Shown here: positions 1 through 59,242 of the stretch, piece by piece | Layout of the letters: every line of letters starts with the position of its first letter | How positions within the stretch are numbered: the first letter of the stretch is position 1 | Translations under genes and position numbers: made by a program | The notes under the pieces: model-generated | The model's database searches: none | Told to the model about the DNA's origin: nothing | Seen by the model: only the letters and a program-made list of their open reading frames with translations | Source of the DNA: Porodaedalea pini | Taxonomy: Eukaryota > Basidiomycota > Agaricomycetes > Hymenochaetales > Hymenochaetaceae | Reading direction: 5' to 3' | NCBI GenBank assembly: GCA_002794775.1 | Contig: NBAY01000045.1 | Location: 62,001-126,000 of the forward strand | DNA length: 64,000 bases

Positions 1-1241
1 CACTGACTCTAAATAACAAGTGAATCACTATTGAAATGGTGGATGTGTCTAGGACTCAAGCACTTGGACTAATACCACGACTCAGAATAGGACTCAGAGG
101 ATTCTCAGTACTCATACAAGCCCAAGTCATACACCCAGCACCATTTGATATTCTGCTTGGCCAACTGTTTCTTGCACATTGCAAGGCTTGGCTAATGGAC
201 ATAGAAATCGACAACCAAGTACTAGAACTAGTCCATCCAGTAATGGATGAAGGTATAACAGTCCCCCACTCCAGAACACACATGATGAAAACAAACAACC
301 AAAGAGGACAAGAGTTTTTAATAGTCAATGAATCGGCACAAGATCAATGAGATGAACCAGAAATTCAACCAGGCTACACCGCAGATACCCCAAAACCAAC
401 CACAGTTCATATTTCTTTTGACAAGCAATCTATTGAAATCACCATCCCTGAAAGAAACAATGCAAAACTGAAACAAAATATAGAAAACAACAAAACCTGA
501 ACAAATGACTTGAATGGATTATTCTCTATTAATCACCCATACAATAATGAATCCCTAATACCTTGATCTAATCAAAATCATCACACAAGCCAACCCTTCT
601 ACAAGTACAAGAAGGTCACAGATCATATAAAACCAGTCCCCACCACTCTCCCAGAGGAATACCGAATCACTAGGACAGCACACCCCAACCCTCTAAAGGG
701 CCTTCCAGAACTACTGACTCATCCTCCACCACTCTCACCTGGGAAATGACTTACCCAGGAACGATACAATGAAATGGACATAGACTTGGCCAGGTTCTTA
801 CTGCCTGAAGAAAAAGACCTTGCATGGTGGGTTATCTGCACACAGGAGATGGCATTCACATGGGATGAAACAGAGAAAGATGCCCTCAACTACAACTACT
901 TCACACCAGTCCTTATTCTGACCATTGAACATATTCCATGGGTACTGAAAAACATACCAATCCCACCAGGCATATTCGACAAGGTAGTTGCAATCATCAG
1001 ACAAAATCATGTCCGGCATATACAAACCATCAAACTCATCATACTGATCCAGATGGTTCTGCATGGTAAAGAAGGATGGAAAGTTACTGAGGATAGTCCA
1101 CAATCTTCAACTGCTAAATGCAGTCACAATACAAGACCCATTGGTACTATACCCAACAGAACATATTGCCAAGTCTTTCAGTGGTCGATCCTGCTACACA
1201 ACCTTGGACCTATTTGTGGCATTCAACTAAAGGAAACTTGC
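1..1241 (+). pseudogene. Gypsy pol fragment: protease and N-terminal RT, broken
   Basis: Residues encoded at 36-350 contain 'PFDILLGQLF', typical of the flap/second half of retropepsin-like proteases in fungal gypsy elements. Between 351 and 773 is the protease-RT connector, with several stops. From 774 the frame gives 'FLLPEEKDLAW...', then 'IPWVLKNIPIPPGI', the start of the RT fingers domain. At about 1090-1140 the frame shifts; the continuation reads 'LQLLNAVTIQD' and 'TLDLFVAFN', then stops at the insertion boundary. No active product is expected. The RT resumes at 7175. Confidence 0.75.
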
Positions 1242-1263
1242 TATACATCAGGAAAATGGCAAA
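1242..1263 (+). repeat. Left terminal inverted repeat of the gene-capture element
   Basis: All 22 bases are the exact reverse complement of 7153-7174. The outermost bases are TATACATCAGG. The first TA or TATA may be target duplication rather than element. Confidence 0.85.
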
Positions 1264-2000
1264 AACCCATAGTTAGTTATAGTGCAATATAGTCACATAG
1301 CAGTTTATAGCATGTCATAGTCATGTATAGTTGCATGGTACATAGTGATAGAGTGCTATATAGTGCATATAGTTTTATATAGTTCAGATAGTTTTATATA
1401 GTTCATAGGCTCTCATAGTCACATAAAGTTATATAGAATATAGCTTATAGTCTCCATAGTCACATAAAGTTATATAGAATATAGCTTATAGTCTCCATAG
1501 TCACATAAAGTTATATAGCATATAGTTAATAGTATCCATAGTCAGATATAGCTGTAATAGTATTATATAGTATATATCTACAATGATGCTGAGTAGAGAA
1601 TCTTAATAGCACCATGGATGAAAACCAACCTGAGGTCACAACTGAATGATGACTAGCATTTAGAATCTGTATTCATCAATCAGAAAAATATCTGCATAAA
1701 ATAATAACTATGGTTGGGAGACTGTTTTTGGCTGCTCCTATATCAGAGTCCTAAGTCTGCATTGCATCACTCTCATTCAAACATTTATTTGTATAAATTT
1801 AAATTGTCTCTACTCTTTTACCCACCAATCTTGACACACTGGTTGTTGAAGAAATACTTTGGGATGAAGGGTTCATTAAGCAGGTAAAAGTAAAAGGTGG
1901 TGAGTAAGGATCTGAGAGTCAGTGAGACGTGTCAAAATTCACAAGTCCAATTTCCCACACTCTTGCTCGTAATGGGCACCCATCCACGAGCAAGAGTGTG
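1264..2000. other. AT-rich subterminal region of the TIR element
   Basis: About 300 bp are dense in TATAGT/CTATA words (1264-1580), including a 41-bp tandem repeat. The same words recur at the other end (6830-7150), suggesting subterminal transposase-binding repeats. From 1580 to 2000 I see no gene. One oddity is a near-palindrome around 1960-2000, where CACTCTTGCTCGT faces its inverse ACGAGCAAGAGTG. Confidence 0.5.
1414..1577. repeat. 41-bp tandem repeat, about four units
   Basis: Units start at 1414, 1455, 1496 and 1537 with CATAGTCA and repeat at exactly 41-bp spacing. The first two are near-identical and the last two diverged. It lies just inside the left TIR, consistent with subterminal repeats of a DNA transposon. 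Confidence 0.75.
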
Positions 2001-2009
2001 GGAACTCAA

Positions 2010-2835
2010 TCACATGTGTGTTGGTTTTGACGCGTGCCACTGCCAACTTCACACCATCCATCAACAACAGCACCCTGGCGCGTTTGAAGGAGAATACTTT
2101 ACAATTGTTCCGCTTCAACCAGAAGGGGAAGTATGTCCAGATTGCAAACCAATATTGTCAGGATGCTCAGCTGGAAACTCTCAAGCAGTGTACTGCCGAA
2201 GGCACTCAGAAGATGGGTCTGAATGGAGAGTTTCAGACCAGCGGAAAACATCATCAGGGTGAGTCATTGTATATGGCCGATTAATGTGTTCTGACTCTAT
2301 ATGTAGCGTGAAGCTCCAAATGCAGAGTGGTGAAGCATGGCCTTTTTACCCAACGACTCCTATGATGATTTGAATGCAGGAATATCCGCGCTCAATATCT
2401 GTGCTCAATATCCATACTCTCGACCCTCCCATCAACATCTACGTGCAACACCCCATAAAGAAAGATCCCTGCTCTGGGTGACAAGGACAAGATGAAGATT
2501 AAGCTGCTCATGCTACAAAGAGGGGGCAGAAGATGTGCAAGCAGCACCGGCAGGCAGAACTGCAGGACAAGCGCGACCGCATCCGCATGGGTCTTGCTCT
2601 GTCTGATGCGTCTAAAGCCCGCCTCGCAAATCTCGTGGAAGTGCTCACCAGCGACACTGTGCAAGATCCCTCGTGCATCGAGACACGCGTGTGGCACGAG
2701 GTCACGATGTGCAAGCATAACCACGGCAAGATGAAGACGGGGTGCAAGTTTACAGACGAGCAATGCCACAAGAAGATGGAAAGCTAGAAGAGGAAAGGAA
2801 AGGGCTTGTTGGCGCTGTCTTCGAGTACGCCAATT
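2010..2835 (+). pseudogene. Captured fragment of a PRP3-like U4/U6 snRNP splicing factor gene
   Basis: One frame (2090-2250) reads 'FNQKGKYVQIANQ' followed by 'DAQLETLKQ', like the conserved segment of PRPF3/Prp3. Further on come 'AFLPNDSYDDLNAGI' (about 2340) and, at 2533-2785, 'QAELQDKRDRIRMGL', 'LANLVEVLTSDTVQDP' and 'KFTDEQ', the family's hallmark pre-C-terminal region, ending near 'KGLVGAVF' (about 2805-2830). Reading needs several frame changes and has internal stops, so this is a decayed genomic fragment of the middle of the gene. The N-terminus and the C-terminal domain are absent. The call rests on recalled family sequence. Confidence 0.75.
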
Positions 2836-2867
2836 TCTGCTTCCCTCCTACTTGATGCTTTCTATTT

Positions 2868-4757
2868 TCCAGGGTACGCGTAGGAAACGTGGCGGCTCAA
2901 CACGTGATGAGTCGAATCGTATCAGTGCTTCTGCCAATCAGTTCAACGTGAATGCTGCTTCCTCCTTCGAACATGTCGCACCGCTCAAGCAGTCTGCGAA
3001 CCGCTGGGTCGCGGGCAGCACATCCAGGCGTGGGGCCTCAATTGACACAGACTCACCTGAGATTGTGGACAAGAAAGTCCGTTTGCTACTCAACAAGCTT
3101 ACTATGGAGAAGTTTGAGTCCATCTCAAACCAGATCATTGCGTGGGCAAACAAGAGTGAGAGTGAGAAGGATGGGCATACATTCATTCAGGTCATTCGGC
3201 TTGTGTTCGAGAAGACAACGGATGAGGCAGCCTGGAGTGAGATATATGCTCGCTTGTGCCATAAGATGATAGAGCAGCTTAGTCTGAATGTGCAGGATGA
3301 TGGTATCCACAATGCTGAGGGCAAGCCAATTACAGGTGGTCTGCTTTTCCATAAGTACCTTCTGAATCGCTGTCAGGAAGACTTCGAGCGCGGCTGGACG
3401 CAGAAGGAGTCGATGGCGTCAGCGGCTCTCGTGAAGGCGACAGAGGATCAGGCTGTTAAAGATTCCAATGAAAAGGAAGAAAACAAGGGGGCTGGCGAGA
3501 GTGTGCTGTACTCGGACGAATACTATGCTGCTTAGAAGGCCAAGCGTCAAGATCTTGGACTCGTCAAGTTCATCGAGGAGCTCTTCAAGCTTCAGATGCT
3601 CACAGAACGTGTCATGTATCAAGAAGCTGCTCAGCAACGTCGACAATCCTGAGGAGGAAGAGATCAAAAGTTTATGTAAACTCCTGGCAACTGTTGGTCA
3701 GGTGCTCGATACCTCTAAGGCTCACGGACACATGGACGTCTATTTCAATCGGATGAAGGAGCTTGCGAAGAGCAGCAACGTGTCGTCTTGTATGCAGTTC
3801 ATGTTACAAGTGCGTACCCTCTGTTTCCTAGCCTTTCGTTGAGCTGACTTTCTTGGACAGGATGTGATTGAATTGCGGGAAAGGAAATGGACTACCCGCA
3901 ACTTGGTCGCTGCTCCATCAACAATCGCTCTGATTCATGAGGCAGTACGTGCTCTTGCTTTGTTACTCAATTTCACTTGTGCTTACCAATATACAGGCCG
4001 CGAAAGAGAAGGCACAACAGGAGCAACATAACTTAGCGCGGCCAGCCATGTCTCGCGGTGGTTCACGCCGTGGCCATGATCGTGACAGAAATGTTCAAGT
4101 CGGTCCCGATGGATGGGCTGTCTCTTCTGGTCCTTCGAGGCCTGCAAGCGAGGTGGGTGATCTGACAAACTCTGGCAAGATTCAAAAGGGCAGTGGCACC
4201 ATGAACTTCGGACCGACTAGTGTCTTCACGAAGAAGGGAGACAGCAAGCGCGACAGTGCGAGCCTTTCAAGGACAAGTTCGAACATGAACATGTTCCAAA
4301 TGCTGCGGGCCACTGAGGCCGCTAATGATGCTCCTACTGCATCCTCGTCTCATCCAAGTCGCCCGTCAAGCCGTATAACAAGCGTCAACTTGACCCACAA
4401 CGCACCTGTGGAACCTGCCCAACCTGCTCAGCGTCCCAGACCCAACCTGCTTCCGCGTTCAAAGCCCATGCAGGAGAAGTCGGAGAATAGTCCCGCTGAG
4501 ACTCACGACAGCGAGGAGGGCGAGGAGGGCGAGATTCTCGAGAAGGACTATGGAAAAATTGTCGATGTCGAAGGAGCAAGCAGAAAAGAAGACTGACCAG
4601 GACTGCAAGGAATTCTTCGCTATCCGCGATCTCAACGATGCAGAAGAGTATTTCTCTGCACTTCCCTCGGAGCATCGACATCTTCTCGTCGAGAAGCTTG
4701 TCATGTCTACTATTGAGGCGAAGGAGGCTGATGCCAAACTCGTTGCCGACCTGTTTG
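2868..4757 (+). pseudogene. Captured fragment of translation initiation factor eIF4G (MIF4G and start of MA3)
   Basis: At 2868-3535 the frame gives an eIF4G linker, 'SANRWVAGS', then the MIF4G HEAT domain ('VRLLLNKLTMEKFESIS', 'IIAWANKSE', 'IQVIRLVFEKTTDEAAWSE', 'YARLCHKM', 'LLNRCQEDFERGW'). A stop follows 'SDEYYAA', then 'AKRQDLGLVKFIEELFKLQ' and, after a small deletion, 'LLSNVDNPEEEEIKSLCKLL'. Two GT-AG introns of roughly 50 bp are retained (about 3809-3859, where 'MQFMLQ' joins 'DVIELRERKW', and about 3947-3997). The linker (3998-4595) is followed by the MA3 start ('EHRHLLVEKLVM', 'EAKEADAKLVADLFE'), which then ends abruptly. The N-terminal and C-terminal parts are missing. The introns point to DNA-level capture. 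Confidence 0.88.
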
Positions 4758-6690
4758 AGTGTGCACCGTCTCAGCGCTGCTACCAACCCGTTCACTGCGA
4801 ATGTTGCTTCCTCGTCGAAACCGATGCCAACACGTTCCCGAAGGTTGTCACGGTCCTTGGAGCATCGCTCGCATCATCGACTTCCCCCTTCGCCGTACGT
4901 GCGCTCGCCTCCCATCCTACTGTCTTCCTCTCTGGAACCAACATTGCTTCATACTTGCGCGTTCTCAGAACCGGGGAGGTCAAGCTTCACGAAGTAGACT
5001 TTGCGACACTCAAGACCGATGCTGCAGCGCCTGCTCCACCCATGTCTGCAATTGCCGTCCAGGAAAAGGCAGCGAAAGAGGAAGGGAGAAATGATGGCGC
5101 CGTGAAGGCTGCATTTGGCATGAAGAAAGAGGTCGACTTTCCGGTATCGTATATGTACGTGTGCTGATTGTTCTGTAATCCCTCACTTAGTGCTGATAAG
5201 TATCATAGGCATTGATCAAGGCTGATACGTTAGACTACTACAGCGTTAGTGGATGCTACAGTCCTAATCACTGGCCGCACTGCATCTGGGAAGCAGTACA
5301 AGGTATTTTGAAGAAACAAGCATCTGCATCTCAGGTTCTTACTTGCCAACAGAACGTTTCAACGCAAGAATCAAGGAGATGGGTGAGTGTAGAGAATGGC
5401 TACTTCCCAATGTTTGTGTCTAAAAAGGTGCTCGAGCATGATAAGGACCACTTTGAGGGCCTTTCTCCAGAAGTGGCATGGGTGACAGGGCATAGGTGTC
5501 CAAATTTTTTGATTTCTAACTATTGACATGCGTCTTCAGAGGGAGCTCCGAGCTTGAGGAGCCCTCCCTACTACGCCTAATGGAACAAGAACTACTGGGA
5601 TCTATCCCTCAAGCTCAATCAGTGGAACCGTGTTGTGCACTGGGAGTTCAAGAGCCCCAGCCGTTCCTCCGTATGCATGAATTCCTATGGCAGGAAGGCC
5701 ACAGTGCGCATCTCACAAAGGAGGCCGATGCTGATGTATGGGAAGTTCTCGACTTATATCGTCGCGTGTACGAGGAACTAATTGCTGTAGCCGTCATCCC
5801 TGGCTTCAAGTCCGAGAAGAAGTTCCCGGTGGACTGTACATGACTCCCGTGGAAGGCTTCATTTCGACGACTGGTCGTGGCATCCAAGCTGCGATGTCGC
5901 ACTGCCTTGGCCAAAACTTCTCACAGCCAGAGATGTTCAACATTGTGGTCGAAGACCCAAACAATCCGTAGGGTATGGGTCCGAACGGTGGCAAATTATT
6001 TGTATGGCAGAACTTGTGGGGCCCAAGCACGCGCACGATCGGGGTCACAGTTATGATTCACGGCGACAACCAGGGTCTTGTTGTCCCACCACGCATTGTG
6101 AGCGTCCAAGCAATCATTGTCCCCTGCGGTATCACCGCACGCACTAATAAGCAGGAGTTATGCGACCGCTGTGAGGAGTTCACGAAGATGCTCAGGAAAG
6201 CCGGTATCTGCGTGAAGACGGATGTACGGGACGGCTACACTCCTGGCTACAAGTTCAACAACTGGGAACAGGAGGTGTGAAAATACAATCATTCCTTATT
6301 CCTCGGTTTGCCTATGGTCTTACAAATGGCTTTTTGTCCAGAGTGTGCTACTTCGCCTCGAATTTGGTCCGGTCGATATCCAGAAGCAAACACTCTCTGT
6401 GTGACGTGATCCAGGTGTTCAAGCTCTAATAGCAGTCGCAGAACTGGAGACTGCCATACCTGCACTTCTCGAGACTATCCAATGGGAGATGTTCGAGTGC
6501 GTGAAGGCACTGTACATGTCTGGCCTGCGTGTCGTGACCAAATGGGACGATGTCGTGCTGACACTCGACAGTAAATGTGTTGCAGTCCTTCCGTGGTGCG
6601 AAGAGGAAGTGGGTGACGTCGACATCAAGGAACATAGCAGACGCAGGTGCATATCTAATGTGCATCATCATGGAGCAAGTCTGATGAGGA
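4758..6690 (+). pseudogene. Captured, decayed prolyl-tRNA synthetase (eukaryote/archaeal type) gene
   Basis: The N-terminal part is weakly readable (4760-5100). Then 'MKKEVDFP', an intron-like gap (5159-5208, GT...AG) and 'IKADTLDYYSVSGCY' give the class II catalytic entry of ProRS. Later pieces are 'YFPMFVSKKVLEHDKDH', 'GLSPEVAWVTGH', '[15 protein letters not shown]', '[19 protein letters not shown]', 'VEGFISTTGRGIQAAMSH', 'HCLGQNFS', 'GPSTRTIGVTVMIHGDNQG' (about 6017-6075), the anticodon-binding domain ('IVPCGITA', 'RKAGICVKTDVRDGYTPGY') and the C-terminal 'AVLPWCEEEVGDVDIKE'. It needs many frame changes and has stops (for example TAG after 'DPNNP', 5969-5971). Nearly the whole catalytic region is represented but cannot be expressed intact. 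Confidence 0.88.
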
Positions 6691-6704
6691 AGTCAGGGAG
6701 ATAA

Positions 6705-7152
6705 GCCGGCAGTCAGAAGTTCATGGCTACACCATTAGGGATGTAGATCCAATGTAATTTATATACTATAATATATGATTTTTGCAATCTGCCTGCTATC
6801 TGAATAAAAGTGTGAGGTCCTGAGATGCCCTAGCAAGTATGACACTGCCTAGTCACCTGGCTATAGACTCCTTTATATCAATATAGGCCACTATATGTCT
6901 CTAAGAAATTATGGCCTATTTGACCCTATGTGCTATTCAGTGCTATAATACTATACCACTGTGGTCTATCCACACTATGTGATATCCCTCTATGGCCTAT
7001 TCTGTGCTATGTAACATACAGCTATGGCACTATGGTACTATATAGTCCTATATAGAGGGGGGGTTACTATATAGAGGGGGGGTTACCATTAACTACTAAA
7101 CAACTATGGACTACTATAAATGCTATATAGTAGCATATAACAGTGTATAGTG
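6705..7152. other. Right subterminal region of the TIR element, no gene
   Basis: This is AT-rich DNA full of CTATA/TATAG words (6830-7150), matching the word content of the left end. It includes a direct repeat of the 19-mer TATATAGAGGGGGGGTTAC (about 7046-7085). No reading frame is supported. Confidence 0.5.
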
Positions 7153-7174
7153 TTTGCCATTTTCCTGATGTATA
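7153..7174 (-). repeat. Right terminal inverted repeat of the gene-capture element
   Basis: This is the perfect reverse complement of 1242-1263, ending CCTGATGTATA. The gypsy RT frame resumes immediately after it. Confidence 0.85.
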
Positions 7175-8230
7175 AAGTAGGGACATAACTACTTTCCAGA
7201 CACCACTAGGGGCATTCCAACTCACATCAATTCCCATGGGATATATGAACTCACAGCAAATCATGCACGCCGATGTTATGTTCATCTTGAAGGATGAGAT
7301 CCTGGACATTGCATTCCCATACATTGACAATGTACCCATAAAAGGACCACCCACACAATACGAACTACCAGATGGATCATATGAAACCATCCCAGAGAAT
7401 CTGGGAATTTGTCAATTCATATGGGAACACCTAAATGACATCAACAGAGTTCTCCAAAGGTTCAAAGTAGTCAGAGTGACTCTGTCCAGGAAAAAGTTGA
7501 TACTCACCGCTCCCAAAGCTGTGATAGTTGGCCACACCTGCAATTACTCAGGGTGAGTCCCAGACAAAGCATGAGTCCAAAAGATCCTTGACTGGCCCCC
7601 TTGTGAAGATATTACTGATGTTCAATCATTCCTAGGAACTGCAGGAGTCCTTAGGCATTTCATCAACAACTTCGCCTGGCTGGCGTATGATCTGAACTGA
7701 CTCATTGGCAAGGACATCACCTTCTCATTCGGACAACACAAACAATGATCCATGGACTAACTCAAAAAGGCAGTTGCCAAGTCTGGAGCCATCAGGCTGA
7801 TCAATTACAAATGTGGAAGACTGGTCCACCTTTGCATAGACTCATCAATTTGAGGATATGGAGTGATTCTCCTACAGATTGGGGAAAATGAGGAATGGTT
7901 CCCAGCCTGTTTTATGTCTGCAACATGGAATGAGAGAGAACAGAACTACTCACAACCAAAGGTAGAACTGTTTAGCCTCATGAGGGCTCTCCATAACACT
8001 CAGATTTAACTGATAGGACTGGACCATTTTTACATTGAAGTCAACACCAAGTACATTAAAGGCATGATCAACAACCCCAACATCCAGCCAAATGCAACAA
8101 TCAACTGGTGGATCACTGGAATTCTACTATTCCACTTCATGATCATCCATGTACCAGGCACTCAGCATACAGACCCAGACAGACTCAGTCAATGAAAGTG
8201 AGCAGACACTGACCCTCTGGACAATGAAAA
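7175..8230 (+). pseudogene. Old gypsy pol, second part: RT palm/thumb and RNase H
   Basis: Reading starts with 'RDITTFQTPLGAFQLTSIP' and 'GYMNSQQIMHADVMFIL', followed by 'AFPYIDNVPIKGPPTQYE', where 'YIDN' replaces the catalytic YxDD (second D to N). The RT thumb ('VIVGHTCNYSG', 'QSFLGTAGVLRHFINNF') and the RNase H start ('LCIDSSI*GYGVIL') follow, then 'WFPACFMSATWNEREQNYS' and 'IHVPGTQHTDPDRLSQ'. Stops at about 7558, 7570, 7699, 7747, 7850 and 8010 are mostly TGA. CG dinucleotides are very rare. Confidence 0.8.
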
Positions 8231-8329
8231 CTATGAGGAATGGATTGACAACCAGTACACTTTCATATTCATAGCATACACTGGAGACATTCCTCCCACT
8301 ACCAATCCTCCCACCATTCCCTGATCAAC

Positions 8330-9757
8330 TGCAGCAGAATTAGCCAATCAAGAGTTGGTACAGATTGAGGAATTCCTCAATGACCCAAAGAAGCCAGAAG
8401 ATATGATGGACAACAAATTTTGACACTTTGTAACAAAGGCAACTAGGTTTTTCATCACAGATGAACAACTCTGGAGGAAATGATACTCAGGATCACACCA
8501 ACTCATACTTGCATAAGATTGCTGATTCTCAGTCATGCAGTCAGTGCATGATGACCTGGGACACAAAGGATTCTTTTCAGTACAACTATGAATCCATGAT
8601 CAATTTTGGTGGCCCATGATGAATTTGGATATACATTGGTTCCTGAAGACATGTCACTTGTGTCAGACTCAGCAATTCACTCATGTATGAATCCTGCCAA
8701 ATGTCCCAACACCAGTGCTGTTATTTGTCAGGCTACACATAGATGTGATGCTCATGCCCAAATCAGGGGGATTCAGGTATATCATCCAGGCAAGGGACTT
8801 GCTCACAGGATACCTGGAGTTCAGACTATTGCACACTGACAACTCAAGATCAATTGCCAACTTCATTTTTCAAGACATCATATGTTAATGGGGTTATGTC
8901 TATGAGATTGTATCAAACAATGGTCCATCATTTGATGGAGAAGTAATCAGAATGTTGGCAAGATATGGAGTACACAATATCTGAATCTCCCCCTACAACT
9001 TGAGAGCAAACAGAATCGTAGAATGATGCCATAGGGACCTCAGGGAAATGTTGATGAAACTTGCTGGGAATGATGAAGCTTGATGGTCACAACACACATA
9101 CCATGCAATATGGGCTGAGAGGATCACAATTCAGAAAGCAACAGGATATTCGCCATATTACATGGTCCATGGAGTCCAGCCGATCCTTCCATTCAATCTG
9201 GCTGAACAAATGTACATGTCACCAGTATACTCATCCAAGGTATCACAGGCTGAACTACTTGCAGCATAAGAAAGGGCACTCCAGCATCAACCAGAAGACT
9301 TGAAACAAGTACACTCAGCAGTCATGCAGGCTCACTTCAAATTGATCCAGCAATTTGAAAAACACTATCAAAACATGATTCAAGACTATAACTTTGGCCC
9401 TGGAGCCCTGGTTCTCATTCAAAACTCACAAATCAACATGGAACTAAGCCAGAAAGCCAAGCCAAAATACCTTGGACCTATGGTACTTGTTTGCTGAACA
9501 ACCAGAGGATTGTACATTCTTGCAGAACTCACAGGTACAGTCTCAGCATTACAATACACAGCCTTCAGAGTCATTCTGTACCACCCCTGAGTGAACATAA
9601 CAACTCCAGTCATCCAGATAGTGGACCAGACCAACTCAGAACTCAACAAACTTGCCAACAAACATTCAAAAGTCAAAGAGGAGGAGCTCAGTGCTGAGGA
9701 TCAGCCACCAACAACAGAAATCCTTGACACTGACTCTGGAACTGAATCTAAATCATG
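8330..9757 (+). pseudogene. Old gypsy pol, third part: integrase, broken
   Basis: Fragments read 'FVTKATRFFI', the zinc-binding region ('HDDLGHKGFFSVQ', 'TCHLCQTQQ'), and the integrase core ('ARDLLTGYLEF', 'SNNGPSFDGEVIRMLARYG', 'ATGYSPYYMVHGVQP'). A C-terminal segment follows ('YNFGPGALVLIQNSQI', 'AKPKYLGPMVLV'), ending in an acidic tail and a stop at 9757. Stops interrupt the core repeatedly, for example at 8503, 8890 and 9025. From 9758 to 9839 there is short non-coding DNA without an obvious polypurine tract. Confidence 0.75.
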
Positions 9758-22425: not shown

Positions 22426-22849
22426 TGTCAGAACTCGAACTTTCCCTTTTCTTTTATTTTCCCTTTTACCATTTCCTTTCTTTGAATCGCCCTTTTTCAT
22501 TATATTTAATCATCTTTCAAATCATTTCCCACGATTCCTTCACATGACCATCATTCATTCCATTCCGTCCGCCCATGTGACATTAGGTAATATAGTCTCA
22601 CGGTTGTCACTATATAAGGTCTCAGGAATTGCATGAACTCCTTGTTCTGCTTTTCCTCTTACCTCCGCGACGACCTAGGTGAGACTCGTCCCCCTTGTAT
22701 TAGTTTAGTCTTGTATTAATCCTCTTACCTCCGCAATGACCTAGCCTAAGTAAGCGTGTCCCAAGTCTACGCTCAAGTATAGCACGTCCCAGACAACAGT
22801 CAGCTAAGGCCTGCCCAGTCCAAGTCGTCTCCCGGACTCCTGCCTAACA
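22426..22849 (+). repeat. 5' LTR of copy B
   Basis: Starts TGTCAGAACTCG, ends TGCCTAACA, 424 bp. A TATATAAG box lies near 22612; the 11-nt GTTCTGCTTTT (22644-22654) is complementary to the primer site just after the LTR (22851-22861). Confidence 0.92.
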
Positions 22850-29468: not shown

Positions 29469-29470
29469 TA

Positions 29471-31859
29471 CAGTCGAACCTCTCATTAAGAATTACTGTC
29501 GATAAGAATTTCCTCTGGTTAAGAATAGAAATTTCAGTCCACCAAGTCGGTAGACAGTAAATTCAGGGTCCAATAAGAATAAATTCTCATTAAGAAATAA
29601 GAATAAGAATTTGTACAAAAACATAAGGGAAAATTCTTATTGAGAGGTCACTTAGTCACGTGAAAGTTGCACATAATCAAGCCATGGAGGACATGCAAAA
29701 AAAGGGTAGCACATTTTCCTCCCTGCTAGACAGCTCCTCGACACTCTTCTACCCACTTCAGAATGTCTACAGAGCTTGGCTGTGCACAGAACCCCAATGG
29801 ATCACTCAAAGAAGCTAGTGAAATCAGCTTTACCCATTCCCACAGTGCTTCTCCCGTTGATCTCAGCACTCCACTGCCATCCATTGCTGCCACTCCCACC
29901 ATAACACCAGTGACTCCCACACCCATGGTGTCCATCAAAGAAGTGCCTGAGAAGCCTTCTGCCAGCAGGGTTCCAAAGCCTAGAATGCTTGGCAAGTGGT
30001 CTAGCACAGCGGTAATCCACTCAGTTCAGAAGTGGGTCCGTTACACTACCGGTGACAAACTCGAGGTTCTCGAATTCATTTTGGGTCCAGGCCAAAATCT
30101 CAAAGATGAGGAGGTTGTGGATCATTTCAGGAGTCACTTTCCCAAAATCAATCAGTCTATGGTTTGGAAATGGAGGAATGAACAACAAAAAATCTGGTCA
30201 TCTGTCAAGAGCAATCCCAACCAAATTTTCTACAAATGGACTGGCATTGCCAAAGCTGTCAAGTTTCCAAAACTTGAAGAAATGCTTGTTTTATTTGTCC
30301 GGACATCTCAGGACCGTCTCAAGATTTCCGCAGAAGTACTTCAGGTCAAGGCAAAATAATTCACAGATATGCTTGGAATACCCCTAGACGAGCAGTTAAG
30401 TCTATCAAATGGTTGGGTTACATCGTTTAAGGACCAAAATGGAATCTGGGAGTATAAACTCCATGGGGAAGCAGCCTCTGTTGCTCCAGAAGCAGTTGAA
30501 GCAGCAAGGGAGCAGCTCAAGGTCAAACTTGCTTCCTTCAGCTGGCGAGATGTGTACAATTTTAACAAAACTGGACTGTTCTATTGGATGCCACCAGATA
30601 AATCACTGGCTACTCAACAGATGTCTGGTGGGAAAGGGGACAAAACACGGATATCACTTGGATTTATTGCAAATGCAGATGGTTCAGATATCTGAGAACC
30701 TTTATTTATTGGTCATGCCTGGCGGCCTCGATGCTTCAATAAGAAGGATGGATACGATTTGGGATTCATGTATTACTACAATAAGAAGGCATGGATGACA
30801 GGAATTATTTTTGAGCTGTGAGCATTTCAAATTTTATTAATGGATTTTTCATGTCTAACTTAAATTTGAAGGTTTCTCGAGGATCTGGATAAGGAAATGT
30901 GTCAGCAGAACCACAATGTCTGTCTTACAATTGATAACGTGCCATCACACATCTTTGATGCCTCAATACTCACAAATGTTGAGGTCATCTTTCTTGATCT
31001 GAACATGACTTCCCATATCTAGCCTATGGATGCCAGAATTATTCGTGCATTTAAAGCTCAATACTGCCACTTATACATTCTCCTGGCCCTCAATTGCTAT
31101 GAAAATGGAGAACAAAATATTTATCATATTGACCAGCTCCAAGCCATGAACCTGGTCAATCAGGCTTGGGCAAAAATCACATCTGAAACCGTATCAAACT
31201 GCTGGAAACATGCTAGAATTCTTAACACTTCTTCAGGACCGATTAATCCAGCCATTAACGGTGATTCTGGGATCAACCAGGCTGTTACCGAGTTAGCGGG
31301 TGCTCTCAAAGAGCTTTCTGTCCAGGCAATTGCATCAAAAAATGTGCCAACTGTTGAGGAGCTTCTCAATATTGATGCTGAGGATGTTACAGAAGCAGAA
31401 TGGACAGATGCCGAAATTCTTCAGCAGGTGGAAATCAGTTCACGTGAGGCTTCTGGTGAGCATATACCAGAACTAGAGGCACCTGGACCAGAACCAGAAC
31501 CACTCATGGGCCTTCCCGAGGCTTGTAATGCCCTTACCTGACTTGATCAACTCTTTCAAAGCGAAGCAGGGCCGGAGTATGCTCAAGCTTGAGTCCTCCT
31601 TCCAAAACTTCATTGGGACCTTCAGAGATGCATTAATAGATCAATGGGACAGTCTGACCTTCATTCATTTTTCCATAAAGAAACATAGTTTGATTTTTAT
31701 TCTATGAACAAGCCTGTATATAATGTGAATGTATGCACCCATGCGCGTGGGTGAATACATCACGTGCACTTTATGTAAGAATTCTCGTTAAGAATTACCT
31801 TTCAATAAGAATAGACTGACTTGTCCACCGAGGCCTATTCTTAATGAGAGGTTCAACTG
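29471..31859 (+). mobile_element. Pogo-like (Tc1/mariner) DNA transposon, copy 1
   Basis: Terminal inverted repeats read CAGTCGAACCTCTCATTAAG at the left and the same on the reverse strand at the right (CAGTTGAACC...). The element is 2,389 bp with target TA at 29469-29470 and 31860-31861, as for pogo/Tc1. It interrupts the copia integrase. Additional RTTAAGAATT words recur near both ends. An almost identical, inverted second copy lies at 56091-58479. The transposase is dead. Confidence 0.93.
29763..31541 (+). pseudogene. Pogo/Tigger-like transposase, multiple stops, catalytic D1 to N
   Basis: Reading starts at 29763 with a low-complexity Ser/Thr/Pro N-terminus, then a psq/CENP-B-like DNA-binding part ('HFRSHFPKINQSMVWKW', 'FPKLEEMLVLFVRTSQDRL'). 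A TAA after 'QVKAK' (30357-30359) interrupts it. The continuation holds 'WVTSFKDQNGIW' and 'VYNFNKTGLFYWMPP', where the usual catalytic Asp-Glu (NFDETGLFY) reads Asn-Lys. A TGA after 'GSDI' (30693-30695) follows, then an intron-like gap (about 30818-30870), 'CLTIDNVPSH' (second D kept), a TAG before 'PMDARIIRAFKAQY' (third D kept), and the C-terminal part to about 31541. The same stops occur in copy 2. Confidence 0.88.
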
Positions 31860-31861
31860 TA

Positions 31862-44344: not shown

Positions 44345-44757
44345 TGTTAGAACCTGAACTTTCACCTTTTCTTTATTTTCCCCTTTTACCATTTCCTTTA
44401 TTATATTCGTCCTTTTTATTATATTTACCCATCTTACACAATCATTCCCACACTGCCTTCTTTCGTTCCATTCCCACTCATTATGTAATGTTAGGTAATA
44501 TAGTCTCACGGTCGTCGCTATATAAGGTCTCAGGAATCGCATGAACTCCTTGTTCTGCTTTTCCTCTTACCTCCGCGACGACCTAGGTGAGACTCGTCCC
44601 CCTTGTATTAGTTTAGACTTGTATTAATCCTCTTACCTCCGCGACGACCTAGCCTGAGTAAGCGTGTCCCGAGTCTACGCTCGAGTATAGCACGTCCCAG
44701 ACGACAGTCAGCCGAGGCCTGCCCAGTCCGAGTCGTCTCCCGGACTCCCGCCTAACA
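44345..44757 (+). repeat. 5' LTR of copy C
   Basis: Starts TGTTAGAACC and ends GCCTAACA. It contains the promoter (TATATAA, 44519-44525), the presumed RNA start near 44552, and a duplicated segment CTTACCTCCGCGACGACCTA (about 44566 and 44631) in the R/U5 part. Confidence 0.95.
44519..44525 (+). promoter_or_regulatory. TATA box of the copy C LTR
   Basis: TATATAA, 33 bp upstream of GTTCTGCTTTT (44552-44562), the sequence complementary to the primer site. The spacing fits RNA starting at the G, as needed for Tf1-type self-priming. The box is also present in copy B. Confidence 0.7.
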
Positions 44758-50180: not shown

Positions 50181-50593
50181 TGTTAGAACCTGAACTTTCA
50201 CCTTTTCTTTATTTTCCCCTTTTACCATTTCCTTTATTATATTCGTCCTTTTTATTATATTTACCCATCTTACACAATCATTCCCACACTGCCTTCTTTC
50301 GTTCCATTCCCACTCATTATGTAATGTTAGGTAATATAGTCTCACGGTCGTCGCTATATAAGGTCTCAGGAATCGCATGAACTCCTTGTTCTGCTTTTCC
50401 TCTTACCTCCGCGACGACCTAGGTGAGACTCGTCCCCCTTGTATTAGTTTAGACTTGTATTAATCCTCTTACCTCCGCGACGACCTAGCCTGAGTAAGCG
50501 TGTCCCGAGTCTACGCTCGAGTATAGCACGTCCCAGACGACAGTCAGCCGAGGCCTGCCCAGTCCGAGTCGTCTCCCGGACTCCCGCCTAACA
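50181..50593 (+). repeat. 3' LTR of copy C
   Basis: 413 bp, no difference from 44345-44757 found by eye, followed by target duplication CTGGC. Confidence 0.95.
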
Positions 50594-53946: not shown

Positions 53947-56090
53947 CTACTCAACGGCCTGCACGCCGTCGTAAGCAGGAAGAATCTTGCATGCGTCGGT
54001 CCAGGCCATGGTGCCTTGTACGAGGCCGGCCGCAACCGAAATGAGACAGTAAAGGTATTCGTGTGACTAAGCGTCGCGTTATTGCGAATTGGAAAGGGAA
54101 AGAAGAAAAAGAAGAGAATAGACTCACCGAAGGGTCATAGTCCGCTTTTGCACGGCTGGACAATGGAAGCACCAACAAAAATCGGACGTTAGATAAGTGT
54201 GCATTCGGTAAACGAGTCAGCTGCGCACACGCAAAGTCTGGTGTCAAGCCGAACGGCATGCCCAGCTCGTCATTGCGTGCATAGCGCTTGCCAATCGAGG
54301 TGTTGGAATCGTCGACGCGTGAGTAGATACCGGCTTTGCGCAATTTCAGAGCTGTCGGCCGCCATAACATGGTACGACATTGTGTCGTATGATAACCCAG
54401 TCACGGGACATTATTGTCGTCATTAATATCGGGGAAGTGAAAGAATGCGATTTAGTCATTTAGAATGCGCAAATGAGAATAATGAGAGAGGGGGCAAGAT
54501 AACGTGTGACTCACAGACTTCCCGAACCAGCGGGTCGAACTCCTCTCTGGCACTTAAAGGGACGATGAGCACCTTCGTCGGTGCGATGATAGGCGGAAGT
54601 GAAAGGACCTAGAACGAGAACGAAGCAGTTAGTCACGAGACCGGTTTAAGCACCACTTGAACGAAGGCAATGTAAGGAGTTTGACATACGCCGCGCTCGA
54701 CGTCTTGTTCACGGCACCAGAAGCTATGCTCGAGGAGGATGTACAGGATGCGGCCCAGCCCAAAGGATGGTTCAATGACGTTAGGGTGAATTCACGAACT
54801 GGATGGAAGAGCGAAGATATCGGGATCAGCAGTCAGTAGCCTGTCTGAACAAAGGCCAGCAAGCGTCATCGCTCACTTGATTGCTTGATCGTCTTGCGTT
54901 CAATTGCAAGATGATCTGACGTGAGAGTGAATTCCTCGCCACCCGCCGATATGACGGTCGAGCTGCACCAGAAGTGGGAAGAAAACCTCAGGATTCCGAC
55001 TTTATCTGAGTCGTGTTGAATGCACATACCCTTGGGCGAGTTCGCCCTTTAGCTTGGCCAGTTCTTCCTCCGTCATCCCACCAACGGCCTTCTGGATCGT
55101 CGCAGAATCGCGGCCAAATGCCTTCCCGAAGTTCTTCTTGTTGAATTCCGGTACGAGTTTTTCGGTCACGATGGGTTCTTTCAGCGCCTGGCGCACGACA
55201 AGTGGATGGCCGGTCTTCGCAGAATGTACAGAAAGGTCATACGCCGCGCGGTCCGCACAACCCACACATTCCGTCCAACCCGATGCGTTCTGGATCTCCG
55301 CGTCCCAACAGTCTGTCGCATAATGTGCCATCTCATTCGCCATATGTTGTCAGAAGCGCAGACGCGCAGGGTCAATGCCAATTTTGAGTAGGAAGAGCTG
55401 AACGCGCGCAAGGAAGTAGCCGAGTGTCTCGTTCGCAATGACACCCTTCGCTACCGCGCCGCCGACAGTAGTGTGTGTCACCTCTGTTCGCCCGCTTGAC
55501 TGCACGTGTCGGTCAAGCAGCGCGAGCGTGACGTCGCGTACCTCTGCGAAACGGTCGTGCGCCTTGTCCTCCGGGTCCACGTAATACTCGATCTCGGCCA
55601 TTGTGAATTCGCGCACGCGCAATAGGCCTGCGCGCGGCGAGATCTCGTTTCGGAAGGACTTACCGATGTGCGCGGACGCGAAGGGGACGCGGCCATTATT
55701 GAACTCCAGCAGGCGAGAGAAGTTCAGGAAGTGGCCTTGCGCGGTCTCAGGCCGCAGATAGCTGACCATGCGCTCGTTAATGTGAGTGGCGAGCGATACG
55801 AAGACCAGAACTCACCCAGGATGTTGGCCTGTGGGGCCGATACTACTGGCGAACATGAGGTTAAACAGCTGCGGTTCGCCGACCTCATTGCCAGTGTCAG
55901 GATTCGTGATGTTGTATTGGCGGCATAATTGGCCGAGTTGGGGACCGGAAAAGTTGTCTAGCTAAGAGAAGCATCTTCAGCCCTCTTCCGGAATTGCAGA
56001 TGTGGCGAGAAAAGGTAATATGAAAGGCTTAGAGGAGTATAGGACGAATTAAAAGAAACAAGGCATTCACTATTCTCAATACATAAGCTA

Positions 56091-58479
56091 CAGTTGAACC
56101 TCTCATTAAGAATAGGCCTCGGTGGACAAGTCAGTCTATTCTTATTGAAAGGTAATTCTTAACGAGAATTCTTACATAAAGTGCACGTGATGTATTCACC
56201 CACGCGCATGGGTGCATACATTCACATTATATACAGGCTTGTTCGTAGAATAAAAATCAAACTATGTTTCTTTATGGAAAAATGAATGAAGGTCAGACTG
56301 TCCCATTGATCTATTAATGCATCTCTGAAGGTCCCAATGAAGTTTTGGAAGGAGGACTCAAGCTTGAGCATACTCCGGCCCTGCTTCGCTTTGAAAGAGT
56401 TGATCAAGTCAGGTAAGGGCATTACAAGCCTCGGGAAGGCCCATGAGTGGTTCTGGTTCTGGTCCAGGTGCCTCTAGTTCTGGTATATGCTCACCAGAAG
56501 CCTCACGTGAACTGATTTCCACCTGCTGAAGAATTTCGGCATCTGTCCATTCTGCTTCTGTAACATCCTCAGCATCAATATTGAGAAGCTCCTCAACAGT
56601 TGGCACATTTTTTGATGCAATTGCCTGGACAGAAAGCTCTTTGAGAGCACCCGCTAACTCGGTAACAGCCTGGTTGATCCCAGAATCACCGTTAATGGCT
56701 GGATTAATCGGTCCTGAAGAAGTGTTAAGAATTCTAGCATGTTTCCAGCAGTTTGATACGGTTTCAGATGTGATTTTTGCCCAAGCCTGATTGACCAGGT
56801 TCATGGCTTGGAGCTGGTCAATATGATAAATATTTTGTTCTCCATTTTCATAGCAATTGAGGGCCAGGAGAATGTATAAGTGGCAGTATTGAGCTTTAAA
56901 TGCACGAATAATTCTGGCATCCATAGGCTAGATATGGGAAGTCATGTTCAGATCAAGAAAGATGACCTCAACATTTGTGAGTATTGAGGCATCAAAGATG
57001 TGTGATGGCACGTTATCAATTGTAAGACAGACATTGTGGTTCTGCTGACACATTTCCTTATCCAGATCCTCGAGAAACCTTCAAATTTAAGTTAGACATG
57101 AAAAATCCATTAATAAAATTTGAAATGCTCACAGCTCAAAAATAATTCCTGTCATCCATGCCTTCTTATTGTAGTAATACATGAATCCCAAATCGTATCC
57201 ATCCTTCTTATTGAAGCATCGAGGCCGCCAGGCATGACCAATAAATAAAGGTTCTCAGATATCTGAACCATCTGCATTTGCAATAAATCCAAGTGATATC
57301 CGTGTTTTGTCCCCTTTCCCACCAGACATCTGTTGAGTAGCCAGTGATTTATCTGGTGGCATCCAATAGAACAGTCCAGTTTTGTTAAAATTGTACACAT
57401 CTCGCCAGCTGAAGGAAGCAAGTTTGACCTTGAGCTGCTCCCTTGCTGCTTCAACTGCTTCTGGAGCAACAGAGGCTGCTTCCCCATGGAGTTTATACTC
57501 CCAGATTCCATTTTGGTCCTTAAACGATGTAACCCAACCATTTGATAGACTTAACTGCTCGTCTAGGGGTATTCCAAGCATATCTGTGAATTATTTTGCC
57601 TTGACCTGAAGTACTTCTGCGGAAATCTTGAGACGGTCCTGAGATGTCCGGACAAATAAAACAAGCATTTCTTCAAGTTTTGGAAACTTGACAGCTTTGG
57701 CAATGCCAGTCCATTTGTAGAAAATTTGGTTGGGATTGCTCTTGACAGATGACCAGATTTTTTGTTGTTCATTCCTCCATTTCCAAACCATAGACTGATT
57801 GATTTTGGGAAAGTGACTCCTGAAATGATCCACAACCTCCTCATCTTTGAGATTTTGGCCTGGACCCAAAATGAATTCGAGAACCTCGAGTTTGTCACCG
57901 GTAGTGTAACGGACCCACTTCTGAACTGAGTGGATTACCGCTGTGCTAGACCACTTGCCAAGCATTCTAGGCTTTGGAACCCTGCTGGCAGAAGGCTTCT
58001 CAGGCACTTCTTTGATGGACACCATGGGTGTGGGAGTCACTGGTGTTATGGTGGGAGTGGCAGCAATGGATGGCAGTGGAGTGCTGAGATCAACGGGAGA
58101 AGCACTGTGGGAATGGGTAAAGCTGATTTCACTAGCTTCTTTGAGTGATCCATTGGGGTTCTGTGCACAGCCAAGCTCTGTAGACATTCTGAAGTGGGTA
58201 GAAGAGTGTCGAGGAGCTGTCTAGCAGGGAGGAAAATGTGCTACCCTTTTTTTGCATGTCCTCCATGGCTTGATTATGTGCAACTTTCACGTGACTAAGT
58301 GACCTCTCAATAAGAATTTTCCCTTATGTTTTTGTACAAATTCTTATTCTTATTTCTTAATGAGAATTTATTCTTATTGGACCCTGAATTTACTGTCTAC
58401 CGACTTGGTGGACTGAAATTTCTATTCTTAACCAGAGGAAATTCTTATCGACAGTAATTCTTAATGAGAGGTTCGACTG
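56091..58479 (-). mobile_element. Pogo-like DNA transposon, copy 2, in GlyRS intron 1
   Basis: 2,389 bp, the same length as copy 1 (29471-31859) and nearly identical to it in inverted orientation. Target TA at 56089-56090 and 58480-58481. At least one difference is a CpG transition (TTCTACGAAC here when read on -, TTCTATGAAC in copy 1). It lies wholly inside GlyRS intron 1, which would otherwise be about 287 bp. Confidence 0.94.
56406..58187 (-). pseudogene. Pogo/Tigger-like transposase, same defects as copy 1
   Basis: The open segments 58187-57591, 57581-57255 and 56924-56409 translate identically to those of copy 1. They include the stop after 'QVKAK', the TGA after 'GSDI', the TAG before 'PMDARIIRAF', and the D1-to-N change in 'VYNFNKTGLFY'. 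Shared inactivating changes mean both came from an already defective source. Confidence 0.88.
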
Positions 58480-59242
58480 TATAAGGATTCGGAAATGGCG
58501 ATGTGTGAATAGTGTAATTGACAAAAACCTTTTTTGAGGAAAGGTGCACGCAAAGAAAAGGTATCGATGGCGCGCAAAGACTGCGTTTGGCGACAAAATG
58601 CCGCATCTTCAGGATAATAAACAAGGCATCGGCGCTCACCTGTGCGAGAATATTCTCGTACTCCTTTACCGCATCGTCCTCGAGCTTCACAGCAGTTGTC
58701 TTGACCTTCTTTTTCCTCTCCTTGTCGTCTTCCCTGACCGGTGCAGCCGCAAGACCACGCGCCTCCTTGTCACCGGCCAGCCGCGCCTCCAGCACGGCCT
58801 TGACGAGGTGATCTGCGCGGAGGACATCACCGGTCTTAGTGTCCTTTACCATCCAGTCCGCGAAGCGTGCGACGTGACCAGATGTCTCAAAGACAGGTGC
58901 GGGCGTCATTACGGTCGGATCGAGCTCAAGCATGTGCTCCTCGATGATGCAGTGTCGACGCCATTCTGCGATAATGTTTGCTTGCAAGGCTGAGCCTGGT
59001 GGGCCATAGTCGTATAGACCAGCGACACCGCAGTAGATTTCGAAAGCAGGGGCATAGAAGAAGCGTTTGTTAAGGAGTGCATCAAGGCGCGTCTTGTCGA
59101 ACGCATGTGCGGCCTTGTTGACAGTTGTCACTGCCATATCGTAGTGTCTATACCGCAGTGAACAGAGGTGAAATCGAGACATGTGTTCTCTTCCTGGCCG
59201 CCAGTGTCGAAAAATAAGAGAAAGAGGAATACGACGCTGCAT

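Follow-up and report, generated by a model that had tools for sequence, protein, structure and literature searches.

The capture and shuffling of gene fragments by DNA transposons with terminal inverted repeats (TIRs) is known mainly from plants. The available text on plant Pack-CACTA and other Pack-TYPE elements describes non-autonomous TIR elements that carry host fragments from several loci and fuse with one another (PMC8903248, PMC13317346). In fungi, the available text of Kojima 2025 (PMC12730594) describes TET/JBP genes captured by transposons, including PlavakaB (CMCT/EnSpm group; termini CATCA..TGATG, target-site duplication [TSD] of 2-3 bp), and passively passed across transposon families. 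Transduplication by hAT and Tc1/Mariner elements in Pyrenophora tritici-repentis is termed the first fungal example in the accessible part of its report (PMC3538342), and the corresponding part of a study of the basidiomycete Pleurotus ostreatus describes genes borne by Helitrons (PMC4289320). Here, we analyzed 64,000 nucleotides of the basidiomycete Porodaedalea pini ("the window," contig NBAY01000045.1, positions 62,001 to 126,000, or C45:62001-126000) against the 53.3-Mb assembly of 201 contigs. The window contains a 5,925-bp element (1246-7170) filled with decayed, intron-bearing fragments of the genes for PRP3, eIF4G, and prolyl-tRNA synthetase (ProRS), very probably a non-autonomous, transduplicating (Pack-TYPE) PlavakaB transposon that is related to CACTA/EnSpm and loaded with dead cargo.

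The element shares with the TET/JBP-carrying PlavakaB its CATCA..TGATG termini, the 2-bp TSD, and the capture of non-transposon genes, and its genome has Plavaka transposase genes close to ends of a similar kind; unlike those elements, it has no transposase, and its cargo is decayed fragments of housekeeping genes with introns rather than one accessory gene (PMC12730594). It resembles plant Pack-TYPE elements in being a non-autonomous TIR element with host fragments from several loci, but differs in its fungal host, its Plavaka lineage, and a ProRS cargo found in more than 100 copies under ends without detectable similarity (PMC8903248, PMC13317346). In P. tritici-repentis, DNA transposons likewise multiply a non-transposon gene, although the available text concerns an ascomycete, other superfamilies, one near-identical open reading frame per element, and a longer form that keeps the transposase (PMC3538342); the P. 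ostreatus case, also a basidiomycete transposon with extra genes, is described as rolling-circle (PMC4289320). The fungal precedents considered here are whole accessory genes, unlike the fragments found here. Among the papers listed from the open-access literature searched, some listings covering the top 10 to 20 papers and most subscription papers lying outside its scope, there was no Plavaka with housekeeping-gene fragments and no basidiomycete Pack-TYPE element, and the available portions of PMC8290104, PMC8955403, and PMC3164196 do not describe the capture of gene fragments by Plavaka or by any other TIR element. As far as we have seen, the novelty lies in a cargo made up of decayed fragments of several housekeeping genes with their introns, in the non-autonomous Plavaka carrier, and in the copy number. 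An earlier interpretation made from the letters of the window (the sequence-only reading) had considered multi-gene capture that includes splicing and translation factors unusual for a basidiomycete. For capture by DNA transposons as such, the TET/JBP genes are a precedent (available text of PMC12730594); the ProRS piece alone is too frequent in this genome for the element to be a lone oddity. The internal clocks of these elements (block decay, shared junctions, and recombination between elements) let capture order and module exchange be read, and the joining mechanism becomes testable in fungi.

The same reading had given the element perfect 22-bp inverted termini at 1242..7174. The inversion does span 22 bp (1242-1263 and 7153-7174), but the alignments of most other copies end at about 1245-1246 and 7170-7171, so that only 18 bp belong to the element (left TIR CATCAGGAAAATGGCAAA, 1246..1263, + strand; right TIR, 7153..7170, - strand). 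The outer 4 bp on each side, TATA, are target DNA and include the TA duplication (1244..1245 and 7171..7172). Uninterrupted copies of the target, a gypsy-type long terminal repeat (LTR) retrotransposon, are present in the genome, and in three of them (L081-L083, taken from 39 further listed matches, with 40 of 70 candidates scored) the joined flanks are gapless at the junction, with TA counted once. The 2-bp flanks, varied in sequence, agree in 23 of the 26 end pairs examined; the mismatches are at C34, C7:494k (L066), and C3:1852k. A 4-bp TATA duplication is ruled out, as the other copies and the empty sites show 2 bp. The interrupted retrotransposon lies on the + strand at 1..1243 (846-1245 aligning to L081-L083 at 81 to 88%) and 7173..9000 (right limit provisional; 7173-7700 aligned). 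The claimed insertion into a gypsy reverse transcriptase (RT) holds for the retrotransposon, given the empty-site relatives and an Integrase_H2C2 Pfam match in L083, but RT-like residues were recognized only by eye and Pfam found no RT in the six retrotransposon pieces submitted.

Inside the TIRs, the left subterminal region (1264..1600, +) is AT-rich and CpG-free, with TATAGT motifs in direct orientation: 11 forward and none reverse in 1246-1600, and none of either in 1601-6700. The right subterminal region (6651..7152) is nearly CpG-free, and the outer right end (counted over 6750-7170) has three forward and six reverse motifs. The observed/expected (o/e) CpG ratio is 0.00 in 1246-1600 and 0.05 in 6651-7170. 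A left interior without source-gene match (1601..2085) holds a 19-bp hairpin (arms 1952-1970/1986-2004) and a 52-bp stretch (1983-2034) common to L061, an element of a second family described below. The suggested search with the terminal sequences found them at many other places, not in the window alone, the latter being an outcome that had been named as refuting its proposal: window 1230-1600 had 47 genome matches including itself, window 6700-7190 had 33, and the 18-mer end, when one mismatch was tolerated, occurred 30 times, versus 0 for a reversed control.

All of the cargo lies on the + strand, in blocks that adjoin without filler at 2875/2876, 4764/4765, and 4822/4823, and the three main blocks align colinearly, introns included, with resident genes. 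The PRP3 fragment (2086..2875), decayed and with one intron at ca. 2259-2306 (placed from GT/AG and the parent), is 80.9% identical to the resident gene at C113:57368-58045 (L064). The eIF4G fragment (2876..4764), in which MIF4G and the start of MA3 can be read by eye, has introns at ca. 3810-3860 and 3945-3996 and matches its parent at C33:46164 (L065, L074) at 90.2%. The ProRS fragment (4823..6650), introns kept, matches the gene on C57 (L063, L073) at 85.5%. A second short eIF4G piece (4765..4822) bridges the latter two, with 4765-4827 aligning to another short eIF4G stretch at 81%. Profile searches with PRP3, MIF4G, and ProRS-C_1 gave C113:57368, C33:46164, and C57:62471 as the best-scoring resident genes; the nearest named protein to the resident eIF4G, among the best 120 of 1438, is from Phellopilus nigrolimitatus (80%). 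Among the six cargo frames sent to Pfam, matches were to PRP3 (8.7e-17), MIF4G (6.5e-14), and HGTP_anticodon (1.8e-6), with ProRS-C_1 under the cut-off (20.1 versus 31.5 bits) and two frames without any match. The Pfam matches and the parental alignments, which the sequence-only reading had proposed, bear out its decayed, intron-containing pieces of three genes. Nor are these genes neighbors in this order at a native locus, its other ground for rejection; native synteny is ruled out by their separate contigs (C113, C33, and C57).

Comparisons among copies show that this cargo decays without coding constraint, largely through CpG transitions. Differences among five copies in the eIF4G exons fall evenly on codon positions 1:2:3 (36:31:36), while those fixed in the five copies versus the gene are 0:4:31, indicating that the source was a working gene and that the copies are unconstrained. 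In ProRS, six copies have fixed differences of 0:0:10 and a different set of seven has 0:1:7; no indel was common to the 8 ProRS copies compared and no stop to the 9. The corresponding PRP3 counts are 22:17:30, and the five copies compared have a stop and two frameshifting indels in common, so this piece was already dead in their ancestor. In the window copy, C-to-T change at parental CpG reaches 0.20 to 0.29 versus 0.06 to 0.12 elsewhere (PRP3, eIF4G, and ProRS-3'), and 0.18 versus 0.10 in ProRS-5'. Two copies, C25n and C69, have no differences in 447 positions of the right end and 81 in ProRS-3', of which 78 are transitions and 59 lie at parental CpG. CpG o/e is 0.00 to 0.05 in the ends, 0.66 to 0.87 in the cargo, and 1.08 to 1.22 in the source genes. 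Cytosine methylation may be the cause of this loss.

The element belongs to a large group. With as many as 3 mismatches allowed, a 27-base ProRS motif has 138 occurrences, one of them in the gene, versus 0 for the control; the first 100 of the 138 places were inspected, and there are fewer elements than matches because some carry the motif twice. The MIF4G profile has 89 genome matches, a figure that takes in split hits, further MIF4G genes, and both the eIF4G gene and its duplicate; the 18 PRP3 matches, split hits included, reduce to the C113 gene and nine element loci. An end was recognizable in 29 of 30 left-end loci, the first 1.7 to 1.9 kb of which contain PRP3 followed by eIF4G in 8 cases, ProRS in 13, and neither in 8; three of the last (L025, L026, and L030) are elements with ProRS deeper in (L058, L059, and L056). 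The copies on C24 and C71 have the same flanks and represent one insertion within duplicated DNA. For genome annotation, this cargo is a warning, producing more than 100 extra ProRS matches and dozens of extra eIF4G-domain matches. At C23:470081-478353, four ProRS motifs, two per orientation, lie within 8.3 kb between TIR-family ends at 440997 and 479202, possibly a composite element.

The PRP3-eIF4G junction is shared. In all eight PRP3-bearing left ends examined (two of them, on C24 and C71, being the single insertion just mentioned), PRP3 starts at parental position 1520-1522 and stops at 2309, running directly into eIF4G 1306 in seven and resuming at 1310 in the eighth (L020). The eIF4G-ProRS part extends beyond this family, being common to the window element and L061 (C43), whose TIR is CATCAGGAAAAACCTCCCG; the window element's 355-bp left and 470-bp right ends had no match in the L061 ends, and in L067 the match is limited to 15 bp. 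The L061 interior stretch is also found at about 20 other loci (among 250 candidates, 32 were scored). The eIF4G of L061 is flanked by ProRS 914 and 1131 and so lies inside ProRS cargo, meaning that it arrived later there; the 3.3-kb L067 has ProRS and no eIF4G match. The junctions eIF4G 3204/eIF4G 1346/ProRS 1131, those of the short bridging piece, recur in L061 and in the C34 element (L059), whose ends are related to those of the window element (ca. 78%). With CpG columns removed, identity between the C135 and window copies is 96.9% in eIF4G and drops to 89.1% in ProRS-3'; in the latter block, C135 is 95.2% identical to C138 and shares 16 non-CpG derived sites with the C138 group versus 1 with the window and C21. 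Between the window and L061, identity is 93.7% in eIF4G, 94.4% in ProRS-5', and 88.1% in ProRS-3'. These block-wise contrasts mean that modules were exchanged rather than inherited with whole elements, and the trio is a mosaic that was built up step by step and has in part been swapped with other elements. Of the tandem capture of three unrelated genes that had been proposed, the three fragments stand, but a joint capture does not.

Two features of L061 stand apart from its cargo. It interrupts a gene that reads by eye as a cytochrome P450, and a 224-bp imperfect inverted repeat (844-1066 and 1218-1441) lies in its left interior and is also present in L067.

The assignment to PlavakaB follows from the CATCA..TGATG termini and matching 2-bp flanks (here TA), which fit the published definition. 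The Plavaka profile (PF18759) has 64 genome matches, none within 1246-7170, and the Pfam scan of the six cargo frames, which alone covered other transposase families, agrees with the earlier statement that no transposase lies inside. Lacking the Plavaka transposase that PlavakaB encodes, the element is at most a non-autonomous derivative. What it does have is what marks Pack-TYPE elements: TIRs, a TSD, no transposase match, host gene fragments inside, and copies at independent sites (C24 and C71 counting as one). MULEs have TSDs of about 8 to 11 bp and hAT elements of 8 bp, which sets both apart from the 2 bp found here, and Helitrons, which have neither TIR nor TSD, do not fit. CACTA/EnSpm sensu stricto, with CAC..GTG termini and a 3-bp TSD in the available text of PMC12730594, also differs from the CATCA ends and 2-bp TSD of this element. 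The shorter 11-mer end CATCAGGAAAA occurs 349 times, versus 24 for its control, and among the first 100 of these places, which were inspected, at least four Plavaka matches sit between such ends. The pair on C17 (22252-30402) encloses a partial match (49 bits) and has matching CA flanks. L066 has a 562-codon frame (Plavaka, 1.2e-76), but its ends diverge after ca. 12 bp and its flanks disagree, and we therefore refrain from calling it intact. An apparent autonomous Plavaka carrying ProRS on C93 was rejected, since the CATCAGG end that follows the Plavaka frame in L072 closes at 5536, and the ProRS belongs to a second element starting at 5683.

We propose that a Plavaka transposase encoded elsewhere in the genome would act in trans on the CATCAGGAAA termini and probably also recognize the subterminal TATAGT array. 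Transposition would leave the 2-bp duplication, the C45 copy having presumably landed in the gypsy-type retrotransposon in this way. Host DNA would have entered stepwise and at the DNA level, with ProRS as the common cargo of elements whose ends have no detectable similarity, and the PRP3 piece in front may have been dead at entry or have died early. Modules were most likely exchanged upon joint excision or repair of neighboring copies. On C15, 515 bp separate two elements that have distinct 2-bp duplications, one apiece, and two ends on C93 are 146 bp apart; such closely spaced insertions are the substrate required by the tandem-insertion model in the available text on Pack-CACTA (PMC8903248, PMC13317346), although no joining intermediate was caught among the copies examined. 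After capture, the pieces evolve free of coding constraint and lose CpGs, and so they are passengers.

Several observations weigh against this picture of a Plavaka-mobilized, stepwise mosaic. No Plavaka element with exactly CATCAGGAAAATGGCAAA ends was found in the genome; of the Plavaka matches between CATCAGGAAAA ends, one pair has a matching TSD and two do not, and none was seen with the full 18-bp end. The two without matching 2-bp flanks (L066 and C3:1852k) may not be intact single elements, and C34 is a third mismatch. There is no CpG excess in ProRS-5' of C21, C135, and C34, and one exonic one-base insertion, a frameshift, is common to the five eIF4G copies compared. The order of capture is ambiguous as well: PRP3 is the most decayed block, yet all nine PRP3 element loci also match eIF4G. 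A simple order ProRS, eIF4G, PRP3 was rejected, given that the heavier and shared decay of PRP3 speaks against a fresh late capture. Could a single element instead have captured all three fragments in one event, with later divergence? The PRP3-eIF4G junction, identical in at least seven of eight left ends, does imply that the present trio descends from one assembled ancestor. However, elements with ProRS only and with eIF4G plus ProRS exist under dissimilar ends, and the blocks have decayed unequally: outside CpG sites, the window copy differs at codon positions 1+2 by 36/364 in PRP3, 28/466 in ProRS, and 17/518 in eIF4G (Fisher test, p = 7e-5 for PRP3 versus eIF4G and ca. 0.05 for both remaining contrasts), counts that also include amino-acid change of the source gene, so that block ages are rough. 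We regard a single capture as very improbable.

The origin of the eIF4G cargo raises a different question. Its third-position divergence is large for the little neutral change seen (31/306 sites fixed between five copies and the gene, versus a per-copy change at positions 1+2 of 0.03 to 0.04), so the captured allele, a working gene, differed from the resident one before capture. It could have come with the transposon by horizontal transfer from another species or a divergent population, but this seems unlikely: ordinary allelic or paralogue divergence is enough to explain it, and ProRS has only 10/289 fixed third positions (six copies). A diverged duplicate is in fact at hand, an inverted copy of the eIF4G region 30 kb from the gene (C33:75800-79000, L075), 93% identical, with differences biased to third codon positions, small exon deletions by eye, and, among 28 third-position sites that could be scored, 15 in the cargo state. 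It matches the gene beyond the captured borders and has no CATCAGGAAA end, which makes it a gene duplicate and not a transposon copy. That the cargo is maintained by function, through chimeric transcripts or proteins or through small RNAs acting on host genes, we consider highly unlikely; the source genes do serve the core of splicing or translation and the ProRS copy C1 (L050) keeps a 273-codon open frame, but differences among copies are even over codon positions, and stops or frameshifts occur in nearly all copies compared, the exceptions being L079 (no stop in the eIF4G exons) and C1 (no exonic frameshift in ProRS-3'). A related and equally improbable idea is that fragments of essential genes (ProRS, eIF4G, and PRP3) hold the host hostage: silencing of the transposon guided by homology or RNA would hit genes that the host needs as well, and would therefore carry a cost. 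If true, this would account for the persistence of ProRS cargo under dissimilar ends and for its exchange instead of loss; CpG loss argues that silencing does reach the cargo, and the ends have almost no CpG to lose. Finally, there is next to no chance that capture proceeded by reverse transcription or by a Helitron. Helitron-borne genes have been described for a basidiomycete (see above), but the retained introns rule out retrocopies, as the sequence-only reading had argued, and perfect TIRs with a 2-bp duplication are present.

Elsewhere in the window, a 2,393-bp element whose inverted ends start with TACAGT is present twice in opposite orientations (29469-31861 and 56089-58481), with one mismatch between the copies; it has pogo/Tigger-like frames by eye and looks recently active. 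The captured-gene element on C21 (L032) contains a similar frame. Direct repeats of 300 identical nucleotides at 44345-44644 and 50181-50480, 5.8 kb apart, likely lie within the LTRs of a young retrotransposon, with relatives at 22437 and 28683 (68 to 69%).

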